Shown here piece by piece: positions 14,656 through 21,932 of a DNA stretch of 54,481 nt. The position numbers and the translations under genes were made by a program. Position 1 is the first letter of the stretch, and each line of letters starts with the position of its first letter. The stretch covers positions 1 through 54,481 of the forward strand of contig JALCBQ010000004.1 in assembly GCA_028066335.1 (NCBI GenBank). Direction: 5' to 3'. The notes below the pieces were generated by a model. It did no database searches. It saw only the letters and a list, made by a program, of their open reading frames with translations, and was not told the origin of the DNA. The DNA is from Pirellulaceae bacterium (GTDB lineage: Bacteria > Planctomycetota > Planctomycetia > Pirellulales > Pirellulaceae).

Positions 14656-14740
14656 GCTTTTAGAATAGCTGGTAATTGGGGATTGAGTTTTTGTTAAAAT
14701 CTCCTGCTAGTTTATATGAAATTGTAGTGAAATTCGAAAA

Positions 14741-14774
14741 AGGCCCCAAGCTTTAATGCTTGAGGCCTTTTTTT
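14741..14774 (+). terminator. Intrinsic terminator
   Basis: AGGCC-C-CAAGC (14741-14751) pairs with GCTTG-A-GGCCT (14758-14768) across a six-base loop, ten pairs with one C/A mismatch, followed by seven T. It ends the gene for the 705-residue exported protein. Confidence 0.88.
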
Positions 14775-15004
14775 GTTTTTATGTAGAAAATATTCACAAC
14801 AGAGTTAATGTTTGCGGCTTAGGGTGACGATGATGAGTTTGACGGTTGGTTTGTCTAGTTAGAAATCAGTGGCAGATCAGTCCGCAGGGGGACAATTAAC
14901 ACGATGAATTCACGCTTGGGGTGTGGATTATTGGTTGTTGTTGCCTCCCTCGTCGGTTGAATGCGATAGGGGCGGCCTAATGATTATATTAGGAAATTCA
15001 TTCG
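14775..15004. other. Leader of TolC-like gene
   Basis: 230 bases without a gene. A TTGACG at 14839-14844 could be a -35 element, but the nearest -10-like string (TAGAAA at 14860) is only 15 bases away, so I do not call a promoter. No strong hairpin is seen. Confidence 0.3.
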
Positions 15005-18424: not shown

Positions 18425-19045
18425 ATGTTTATTAGTTTTGATGGTATTGATGGTTCGGGTAAATCAACACAGCTTAGGCTCTTTTCCGATTGGCTAAAAG
18501 CGACGGGGAAAACCCCACTTCTTTGCCGAGACCCTGGATCGACACCTTTGGGTGAAAAAATACGCCATCTGTTGCTTGATACCAATGAGGCCTCAATAGG
18601 ACGACGTGCTGAAATGTTTTTATACATGGCGGCTCGCGCACAGATGGTCCATGAAATTATCCGACCAGCTCTTGAGGCGGGCAAAATAGTTGTCGTTGAC
18701 CGATTTTTGTTGGCAAATATTGCCTATCAAGGCTATGGCGGCTATCTTGACGTTAAAAAACTTTGGGATATTGGAAGATTTGCAACAGAAAGCACTTCTC
18801 CTGAATTGACGTTTGTCTTTGACCTCTCACCAGAAGTGGCTGCTGAGAGAATCTCACGGCCAAAAGATCGTATGGAGCAACAGGGGCTCTCTTTTTTTCA
18901 AAGAGTGAGTGAAGGGTACCGAATAGAGGCAAAAAAGCATCCCGGGAAGTTTTTTTTGATTCAGGCTGATCGTCCAGAAGAGGCAATAGCTGCTGAAATA
19001 CGGGAACTTTACCAGGAAAAAGAGAAGAGTATGGTACCCAAATGA
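18425..19045 (+). CDS. tmk: Thymidylate kinase
   Basis: Phosphorylates dTMP to dTDP with ATP for dTTP synthesis in the cytoplasm. The 206-residue protein shows the P-loop FDGIDGSGKST near the N-terminus, the DPGSTPLGEKIR motif, the VDRFLLANIAYQG substrate-binding segment and a short lid with basic residues (SRPKDRME). The ATG at 18425 is chosen because GAGG lies just upstream and the P-loop begins at the usual distance; the frame is open to 18395. The stop overlaps the holB start (ATGA), a translational-coupling arrangement common for tmk-holB. Confidence 0.96.
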   Translation: MFISFDGIDGSGKSTQLRLFSDWLKATGKTPLLCRDPGSTPLGEKIRHLLLDTNEASIGRRAEMFLYMAARAQMVHEIIRPALEAGKIVVVDRFLLANIAYQGYGGYLDVKKLWDIGRFATESTSPELTFVFDLSPEVAAERISRPKDRMEQQGLSFFQRVSEGYRIEAKKHPGKFFLIQADRPEEAIAAEIRELYQEKEKSMVPK

Positions 19046-20088
19046 TCTGGAATGAATTACTTGGCCATCAAGGAAACGTCGATTTTTTTCGAAGAGGTTT
19101 AGCAAACAATCGGCTTGCCAGTACTTACTTGTTTGTGGGGCCCTCTGGTGTTGGAAAAGGGCTCTTTGCCCGCCTATTAACACAGGCCTTGATATGTGAA
19201 GAAGTTGAGGGGCTCAACGCATGTGGTCAGTGCTCTTCTTGCCAGCAGGTTCATTCAGAGAGTCACCCTGATGTTCAGGTCATTCGCAAACCGGCTGAGA
19301 AGAGCTTTTTGCCAGTCGAGAAATTTATTGGTGACCGAGAACATCGAATGCGTGAAGGATTATGCCATTTTATCTCCTTAAAGCCATCTGGCCGCTACAA
19401 AGTGGGAATCATCGAGGACGCAGACTATTTAAATGCTGAAGGGGCAAACTCGCTGCTTAAAACGCTCGAAGAGCCCCCTGCTCAAGCCCTCTTAATTCTC
19501 TTAAGCAGTAGTGAACAGAAACAGCTTCCGACAATTCGCTCTCGCTGTCAAATAGTTCGCTTTGGCGAACTTAGAAAATCTGAGATTGAACAACTACTTT
19601 TAAAATACAAAAAAGCAGATCCTCAAACGGTAGCAAGGATTGCTTGTTATGGGAACGGAAGTATGGCGCGTGCCGAGCAACTTTTAGATGAAGAAGTGTT
19701 AGAGTTTTATGAAGAATTTTGGAAATTGCTTGAAAAAGTGGGAGGGAACCGGGACTCAACTATTAAGCTGGTAGGTCATTTCTGTGAGCAGGCTGGCAAA
19801 GAGTCGAGCCGGCGCCGAGAACGTATGATCATGGTTTGCGATTTTGCCGCCGAGCATTTTCGAATGCGTTTAACACGGCTCGTTGAGAGAGGGCATTCAA
19901 GTCGGGAATTGTTAGAAGAGTACCAAGACCGACTTCTAGCCTGCATAGAGAGGACATTTGAGGTAATCGACCAAGTGCATGCAAATATCAATCAGTCAAC
20001 TTTACTCGAATGTTGGATTGATGAGCTAATTTTGCTCCTTTCTGGTCTACCCTTGCCTCCATCACTTGTTTTACCGACGATTGAGTGA
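19042..20088 (+). CDS. holB: DNA polymerase III delta' subunit
   Basis: The delta' subunit of the clamp loader that places the sliding clamp on DNA. The 348-residue protein has an AAA+ domain with a Walker A-like GPSGVGKGLFARLL, a zinc-binding Cys set (CEEVEGLNACGQCSSC, about residues 53-68), the LLKTLEEPP motif and the sensor-like RSRCQ. The C-terminal collar helices are less conserved, as usual. The start overlaps the end of tmk by four bases, so the two are expected to be translated as a pair. A weak hairpin with a downstream T-run lies at its stop. Confidence 0.93.
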   Translation: MIWNELLGHQGNVDFFRRGLANNRLASTYLFVGPSGVGKGLFARLLTQALICEEVEGLNACGQCSSCQQVHSESHPDVQVIRKPAEKSFLPVEKFIGDREHRMREGLCHFISLKPSGRYKVGIIEDADYLNAEGANSLLKTLEEPPAQALLILLSSSEQKQLPTIRSRCQIVRFGELRKSEIEQLLLKYKKADPQTVARIACYGNGSMARAEQLLDEEVLEFYEEFWKLLEKVGGNRDSTIKLVGHFCEQAGKESSRRRERMIMVCDFAAEHFRMRLTRLVERGHSSRELLEEYQDRLLACIERTFEVIDQVHANINQSTLLECWIDELILLLSGLPLPPSLVLPTIE

Positions 20089-20117
20089 ACCTTTGGTCAC
20101 TGACACTCTCTTTTTAT
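20084..20117 (+). terminator. Weak terminator candidate after holB
   Basis: AGTGAACC (20084-20091) can pair with GGTCACT (20095-20101) with one bulged A, and a T-run comes about ten bases later. The gap between stem and T-run makes this only a candidate. Confidence 0.35.
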
Positions 20118-20234
20118 TGGCTTTTGGGGTAGGAGAGACCAAGAAGGCCGCCGTTCTAGGCGAGAGATATAGGGCTGTGGACAAGAATCTTTCCTCAAAA
20201 ACTGAAAATTGTTAAAATAGGGAAAGAAAAAAGG

Positions 20235-20395
20235 TTGACTTCATTTATGTTGTGTAAATAATAAGTCGACGACCAATCACGAGCTATTTTTTTAAAAGAA
20301 GCGAGCGATTTCTCCCCTTTTTATGAATATTTCAAGGGGACTGGTCGTATATAAAGCATAAATACTGTAGTTTTCTACAGATACTTTTAATTTGT
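20235..20395 (+). ncRNA. Possible structured small RNA
   Basis: Part of an 850-base stretch without a convincing gene. Several stems nest. GACTT-c-ATTTA (20237-20247) pairs with TAAAT-AAGTC (20255-20259 and 20263-20267). ACGACCA (20269-20275) pairs with TGGTCGT (20342-20348) and encloses TCCCCTT (20313-20319) paired with AAGGGGA (20334-20340). CTGTAG (20365-20370) pairs with CTACAG (20375-20380) around TTTT, followed by a T-rich run. TTGACT at 20235-20240 could be a -35 element. I do not recognise a known RNA family; signs of SRP RNA, tmRNA and RNase P RNA were looked for and not seen. Strand and ends are inferred. Confidence 0.35.
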
Positions 20396-20935
20396 GTGAG
20401 TTTTTTTAGTCCACCTTTTGCTAAGTAACGGTAGAACTTTGTGAGATGCAACTGGCGTTGTGTTTTTATCGCCTTCTGTGTATACAAGGTTCTCTTTCCG
20501 CTGTGTAGGAGGGGGGAATGATGCGATAGTGGTTAATCGCCATTTTTCGCCAGTACAAATTTTTGGGGCGGCTCTAACGTCGAAATATCTTTCGTCTGTT
20601 TTCGCAGTAAGCGAACGGTGGGCCATCCTGAGCTTGGATACTGATTTTATTTTCCCCGTAAATCGCTTAGTTACTCAAAATCTGCTAAAGATAAAAGGCT
20701 AGGAATCGAAGAGAAGCAGAAGTGCAGAGATGGTTGAGTGGCGAATGTCAAAAGCCTGTACACATAAAGCAGTATGTTCCACATGAAGATGGCAACTGCA
20801 ATGGGTAGGTGATGCTTGGGCGATTTTGCAAGTGTGTCGCAAGGTTCTGTTGAAAGCGACAGGAAGGCCAAAAGGCAGTGTGAAAGGTTAGGGCTATTTG
20901 TGTATAGTCAATTTTGAAGAATATTGGAGATAACG
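20396..20935. other. Gene-poor stretch upstream of small unknown gene
   Basis: 540 bases with only short overlapping open frames on both strands (for example 20460-20702 plus and 20387-20626 minus), none with a ribosome site or a protein-like composition. The stretch around 20725-20745 resembles a serine-tRNA D-arm at first sight, but no acceptor or T-arm follows. Its content is unknown. Confidence 0.3.
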
Positions 20936-21160
20936 ATGGAAAGAGTGCAGAACGTATTTGAAGCGATTATCAAATTTGGGCATGATGAAGATTTTAGTCC
21001 TCAAAGTTCTGATGAGTTCAAGGGGACAACTGCCCCTGCTGGTTCAAAGGCTAAAATTGAAGAGCTTCGCCGACGTGTTGAATTAGGATTGCCTTTGTGG
21101 CACGGTGAAGACCGTATGGACTATACTGCTCAGTTGAAATCAATTCGGCCTGAGTGCTAG
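20936..21160 (+). CDS. Small hypothetical protein next to csrA (74 aa)
   Basis: A 74-residue soluble protein with no known domain that I can name. The N-terminus (ERVQNVFEAI) is helical, a Ser/Thr/Pro linker follows, and the C-terminal half contains AKIEELRRRVELGLPLWHGEDR, read in overlapping parts, then YTAQLKSIRP. The LPLWH-x-x-DR string recalls small planctomycete proteins, from memory. The start is ATG 20936 with a GGAG ribosome site; an in-frame TTG at 20924 is less likely. Convergent with csrA and separated from it by a bidirectional terminator. A link to CsrA, for example as a small antagonist, is only a guess from position. Confidence 0.65.
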   Translation: MERVQNVFEAIIKFGHDEDFSPQSSDEFKGTTAPAGSKAKIEELRRRVELGLPLWHGEDRMDYTAQLKSIRPEC

Positions 21161-21222
21161 TCTAGAGGGCCTCTCTTGGAGCAATCTTATCGGTGGCTAG
21201 TCAGTTGCCCATTAAACTGGAA

Positions 21223-21264
21223 AATAATAAAAAAACCCGAGTAAACTCGGGTTTTTTTATTATT
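21223..21264. terminator. Bidirectional intrinsic terminator
   Basis: Perfect inverted repeat with 19-bp arms (21223-21241 and 21246-21264) and a four-base loop TAAA. The GC core CCCGAG/CTCGGG is flanked by seven A on one side and seven T on the other, so it should stop transcription from the small plus-strand gene and from csrA on the minus strand. Confidence 0.93.
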
Positions 21265-21641: not shown

Positions 21642-21932
21642 TTATGCGTTTTCAAGTGATGGCGCTCCCACGAGAACCGACTTGAGTTCTCTTTCTCCGG
21701 TGGAACCATAGAATAGTATGGTGTTTCTCTCGGTTTCCCATATCGCATTTAGTCGGACTGAGCGCGGTCCGTGCATACAAAAATAAATGCCGCATGGTGT
21801 TCCCGAACGGGTTAAGATGCTCTCGACAACAGGAAAAGCACCTAATTCAAAATCATTCAATTCACAAAGCATTTGATAGACATAGTTTTTTAGATCTTTA
21901 AGGTTTCGGAATGAGGATCCTTGATGAACCAT
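21642..21932 (-). CDS. Small hypothetical protein upstream of csrA (96 aa)
   Basis: A 96-residue soluble protein without a function I can assign. It has a compact alpha/beta look: an N-terminal helix (FRNLKDLKNYVYQML), a middle with GAFPVVESILTRSGTPCG, and a strand pair ending in RLNAIWETERNTILFYGSTGE. The string HGPRSVRLNAIWE looks highly conserved in planctomycete proteins as I remember them. ATG at 21932 with a GGAG ten bases upstream. It lies 130 bases upstream of csrA on the same strand and may be in one operon. It could act in the same regulatory pathway; that is inference from position alone. Confidence 0.75.
   Translation of the reverse strand: MVHQGSSFRNLKDLKNYVYQMLCELNDFELGAFPVVESILTRSGTPCGIYFCMHGPRSVRLNAIWETERNTILFYGSTGERELKSVLVGAPSLENA

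Follow-up and report, generated by a model that had tools for sequence, protein, structure and literature searches.

The locus between holB and csrA

The window, which is the whole 54,481-nt stretch of planctomycete DNA that was analysed, contains a gap of 835 bases (20089-20923) with holB on one side and a small conserved gene on the other, and the candidate stretch sits in this gap (Table 1). Past the small gene lies csrA on the opposite strand, ~1 kb from the candidate stretch, with a 96-codon gene beside it. The source genome is 2.9 Mb in size, is split into 208 contigs, and is ~96% complete; absences of genes or RNAs from it therefore carry uncertainty. The small gene encodes 73 aa and is present in 57 of the 60 genomes searched (its own included), and the second half of its product may resemble FlgM, as judged by eye. 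The 96-codon gene has 49-61% identity in relatives where tblastn detected it. Between the converging small gene and csrA there is a strong hairpin, AAAAAAACCCGAGTAAACTCGGGTTTTTTT, at 21217-21252, which looks like a shared two-way terminator.

Table 1. Features of the gap and of its flanking genes (positions are those of the window).
Feature	Position	Strand	Basis or remark
holB-like gene (DNA polymerase III delta prime)	19042-20088	+	PF13177; TIGR00678 below its cut-off
Promoter-like site, TTGACT-16-AATAAT, inside the first predicted stem (20234-20241/20263-20270)	20235-20262	+	Consensus match (10/12), putative
Core, predicted three-way junction closed by ACGACCA/TGGTCGT	20269-20348	+	Fold energy, pair probabilities
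Third arm: ATC/GAT, C-G, GA/AG mismatches, GCT/AGC	20276-20309 (20276-20285/20300-20309)	+	Standard pairs 0.88-0.99 on the plus strand
Arm TCCCCTT/AAGGGGA with long AT-rich loop	20313-20340	+	Fold and pair probabilities
Weak terminator-like hairpin (20356-20397; inner CTGTAG/CTACAG, 20365-20380), then GAG and T7 (20401-20407)	20356-20407	+	-9.0 kcal/mol
Alternative minus-strand RNA: same three-way junction, then weak hairpin (20234-20270) and TTTTTT	20225-20349	-	Better fold than plus strand
Small conserved gene (73 aa), downstream of the gap	20936-21160	+	No Pfam or NCBIfam match
96-codon gene beside csrA	21642-21932	-	No Pfam or NCBIfam match

The original prediction held that the stretch encodes no likely protein, and the reading frames bear this out. 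The list of open reading frames has none of at least 60 codons in 20089-20386, and the three ORFs of the gap, with 80, 79, and 66 codons, match no Pfam family at E 1, show a flat GC content by codon position, and have no similar protein at the syntenic loci of relatives. The candidate stretch is not protein-coding.

Pairing and folding of the candidate stretch

All stems listed in the original prediction were recovered where it had placed them, and all are part of the minimum-free-energy fold. ACGACCA (20269-20275) pairs with TGGTCGT (20342-20348) with inner pair probabilities of 0.99-1.0, TCCCCTT (20313-20319) pairs with AAGGGGA (20334-20340) with C-G pair probabilities of 1.0, and the CTGTAG/CTACAG stem has a pair probability near 1.0. 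The first two stems had been described as stacked on each other; they are present, but a third arm had been missed, which makes the core a predicted three-way junction with linkers of 0, 3, and 1 bases. The stems had also been said to coexist. This is so for the fold as a whole, except that the first stem, whose true span is 20234-20241/20263-20270, competes with the ACGACCA stem for positions 20269-20270, and the first two pairs of the latter drop to 0.07 and 0.13 when the first stem is included. If the plus-strand reading is right, the first stem would more probably be part of the promoter DNA than of the RNA. At the other end, the hairpin at 20365-20380 is real, whereas the T run that was thought to close it lies further on, as seven T beyond the coordinates originally given.

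The pairing potential is real and exceeds that of shuffled sequences. On the plus strand, 20235-20395 folds at -36.5 kcal/mol (z -3.0), which was equalled by 4 of 1,000 dinucleotide shuffles, and the core alone at -22.5 kcal/mol (z -3.0; 9/1,000 shuffles as good). The corresponding minus-strand values are -40.0 kcal/mol (z -4.9; 0/1,000) and -24.7 kcal/mol (z -4.15; 1/1,000), and minus-strand 20234-20348 reaches z -4.3 with none of 1,000 shuffles as good. A smaller run of 200 shuffles gave z -2.86 (plus) and -5.16 (minus) for 20235-20395. The original prediction did not consider the minus strand, whose fold is at least equally good. For the predicted plus-strand transcript, 20269-20407, a single shuffle in 1,000 folded as well.

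The locus was also compared with the other intergenic DNA. In a scan of 14 intergenic stretches with 238 windows of 161 bases (119 positions on two strands, 40 shuffles), the minus strand at 20239 ranked first (z -6.71), and the best plus-strand window, at 20269, ranked tenth (z -3.46). A coarser scan in fixed register covered all 54,481 nt with 1,088 windows of 130 bases; here the best value of the locus was -2.67 (20301, plus strand), at rank 30, and its absence from the top indicates that the rank depends on the register.

Homologues, gene order, and known RNA families

A model was built from the one available sequence for each strand (R1, minus; R2, plus), and Infernal with its stricter filters matched these models only to the source genome among 241 genomes of the family, with no homologue in the other 240. 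None of 42 syntenic loci around the small gene matched at E 10; such models reach only close relatives, and these results are thus weak evidence of absence. The genus is represented by one genome. DNA similarity searches with the gap in 60 relatives returned nothing better than E 0.06 apart from the gap itself. Phages and plasmids matched the stretch in short pieces only (best E 0.7 and 2), and a 16-base exact pattern had seven matches in viral contigs, which we took for chance on a rough estimate of the collection size.

The proposal that the stretch might be conserved next to holB and csrA holds for the gene order but not for the stretch itself, where relatives have yjbQ instead. The order tmk, holB, yjbQ (on the opposite strand), small gene, csrA, and 96-codon gene recurs partly or wholly across the order. 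With the locus of the window excluded, yjbQ lies upstream of the small gene in at least 31 of 42 loci (on the opposite strand in 30), holB precedes the small gene in the same direction in at least 13 of 42, and the arrangement holB plus, yjbQ minus, small gene plus was seen in at least 13 of 42; these counts are lower bounds, as most of the loci extend only ~1.5 kb upstream, and a few loci share a genome (L062 and L063; probably L028 and L057). A search of genome contigs with the small gene gave 13 loci, which were used for gene order; the HolB query found no relative in the search of genome contigs. The slot product is YjbQ according to NCBIfam (one protein tested) and is named thiamine-phosphate synthase. 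Neither tblastn nor a profile search on six frames found a yjbQ remnant in 20089-20923, so the stretch is no recognisable debris of that gene, and the sole yjbQ relative in the genome (30% identity) is on another contig, C128.

The stretch also belongs to no RNA family in Rfam 15, which gave no match in the whole window at the gathering threshold, none over 20080-20950 with E up to 5, and none in the 20 syntenic loci searched from relatives. RNase P RNA, tmRNA, and SRP RNA were rejected as identities, each being found above cut-off elsewhere in the genome (RF00010, RF00023, and RF00169 on contigs C110, C134, and C187). 6S RNA (RF00013) was not found anywhere in this genome, which leaves its slot open, and among 36 genomes of the family and order (own included) nine had a match at E 0.001, three of them above cut-off. 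The candidate stretch has no 6S match even at E 5, however, and the three best 6S loci are on contigs other than that of the small gene (genomes G045, G001, and G009). Furthermore, 6S RNA is a long rod, whereas the core is a predicted three-way junction.

With csrA at a distance of 1 kb, a sponge of the CsrB/RsmY type was also considered. RNAs of this type have several GGA motifs, mostly in loops; 20269-20407 has only one, in the arm AAGGGGA, and this identity was rejected. The meeting of three helices in the core, with a GAAA beside one arm on the minus strand, recalls the hammerhead ribozyme and the TPP riboswitch; the latter was considered because of the name given to YjbQ. Neither has an Rfam match here, and the CUGANGA that a hammerhead ribozyme carries is absent from the candidate.

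The closest likeness is to a class rather than a family. Like the independently transcribed intergenic small RNAs of bacteria that carry an intrinsic terminator, the candidate is intergenic, has a predicted length of ~139 bases, and has a promoter-like site, a structured 5' part, and an end hairpin followed by a T run; unlike them, it has no homologue among the genomes searched, its putative terminator is weak, and Hfq was not found in this genome. A literature search turned up little on the small RNAs of planctomycetes and, among the titles listed, none devoted to them. The table of one small-RNA review gives 8 for the PVC group (PMC9029176), and the Rhodopirellula-1 motif is listed in Proteobacteria and Planctomycetes, with no RF number in the table concerned (PMC2864571).

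Putative transcription signals and possible roles of the stretch

The promoter-like site ends six bases before 20269, so that the expected start, ~20269, falls exactly where the closing helix begins. It is the sole site of at least 10/12 in 5,596 bases of intergenic stretches, against an average of 1.65 in shuffles, and 16% of gap shuffles contain at least one; taken alone, the site is within chance. In the same genome, the 60 bases upstream of rnpB, ssrA, and ffs contain no promoter match of at least 8/12, which means that the sigma-70-like consensus is uncalibrated here and may not be the organism's own. Of the terminator-like hairpin, the inner stem is sure and the outer helix is formed at a probability of only ~0.3; with its T run it has z -1.7, and 60 of 1,000 shuffles were as good. 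Terminators were called with the strict version of the scan, the lax one having listed far too many sites.

A promoter-like site of at least 10/12 followed 60-250 bases on by a same-strand terminator of -8 kcal/mol or better arose in 37 of 3,000 gap shuffles, with both thresholds picked after the site was seen, and the unit is the only one of its kind on either strand across the 14 intergenic stretches. Laxer cut-offs raised the number to 248/3,000 (9/12, -8 kcal/mol) or 73/3,000 (10/12, -6 kcal/mol).

The best single reading is an orphan intergenic small RNA gene of ~139 bases on the plus strand, to which we give a probability of about 0.4. Transcription would start at ~20269 from the sigma-70-like promoter, the RNA would fold into the three-way junction, which may protect its 5' end, and it would end at the weak intrinsic terminator. 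It might act in trans by base-pairing with target messages, either through AU-rich loops or through the link at 20349-20355, which is single-stranded; since Hfq was not found, such action would be Hfq-independent or rely on a different chaperone. We infer its transcription, strand, ends, targets, and function from the sequence. The fold excess over shuffles, the placement of the promoter-like site, the promoter-terminator unit, the lack of a coding signal, and the lack of a match to a known RNA argue for this reading; the missing homologue in 240 genomes, the better minus-strand fold, the poorly formed outer terminator helix, the post hoc thresholds, the absence of Hfq, and the uncalibrated consensus argue against it. 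The original prediction of a small RNA consequently stands in part: the folding, the coding analysis, and the flanking signals agree with it, but no homologue was found in the genomes and loci searched, and the evidence is split between the strands. A narrower version is doubtful, namely that the slot of the lost yjbQ beside csrA, in a reduced planctomycete genome, gave rise to or was taken over by a genus-specific RNA that is built around the three-way junction and works without Hfq. If confirmed, a small RNA in a lineage without Hfq would offer a good opportunity to test how small RNAs act in the absence of that chaperone.

Almost as likely as a small RNA gene is a meaningless spacer, an AT-rich remainder of yjbQ loss whose hairpins are chance products or weak stops between convergent or neighbouring genes. 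The occupation of the slot by a minus-strand yjbQ in relatives and its absence here fit such an origin, as do the lack of conservation among the relatives searched and a promoter-like site that is by itself unexceptional. The spacer is harder to reconcile with a fold excess that is the strongest of the 238 intergenic windows, unmatched by any of 1,000 shuffles on the minus strand, and with a gap free of recognisable yjbQ debris.

An RNA read from the minus strand is less likely than a spacer and, in our view, improbable. It would be ~125-170 bases long and convergent with holB, would begin near 20349 or 20390, and would have 20234-20270 as its end hairpin, with TTTTTT after it. Fold energy favours this strand, and the promoter and terminator signals favour the plus strand. 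The strand-specific pairs likewise point both ways: in the third arm, the minus strand can form a G-U pair (G-T in the DNA, pair probability 0.97) at a place of an A-C mismatch on the plus strand, and G-U pairs in a hairpin at 20352-20388 also suit the minus strand, whereas the first stem, which would be the end hairpin of a minus-strand RNA, has U-G pairs on the plus strand that become C-A mismatches on the minus strand. That end hairpin is weak (-5.0 kcal/mol; 47/1,000 shuffles as good), and there is no promoter-like site nearby on the minus strand. We lean towards the plus strand.

Least probable is a role as attenuator or long 5' leader for the small gene, in which transcripts from 20235-20262 would stop at 20401-20407 unless the junction were remodelled: the strand is the same, and a hairpin and T run lie downstream of the junction, which is the layout of an attenuator, but the small gene starts 529 bases past the T run, has its own promoter-like site (20880-20908, 9/12), and is preceded by no riboswitch or leader family in Rfam, and the upstream regions of relatives do not match R1 or R2.

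Elsewhere in the window, the intergenic stretch 14656-15004 folds strongly whichever strand is taken (z -4.96 and -4.56), and a strong terminator-like hairpin with a T run at ~14739-14776 (-21.4) accounts for at least part of this folding.
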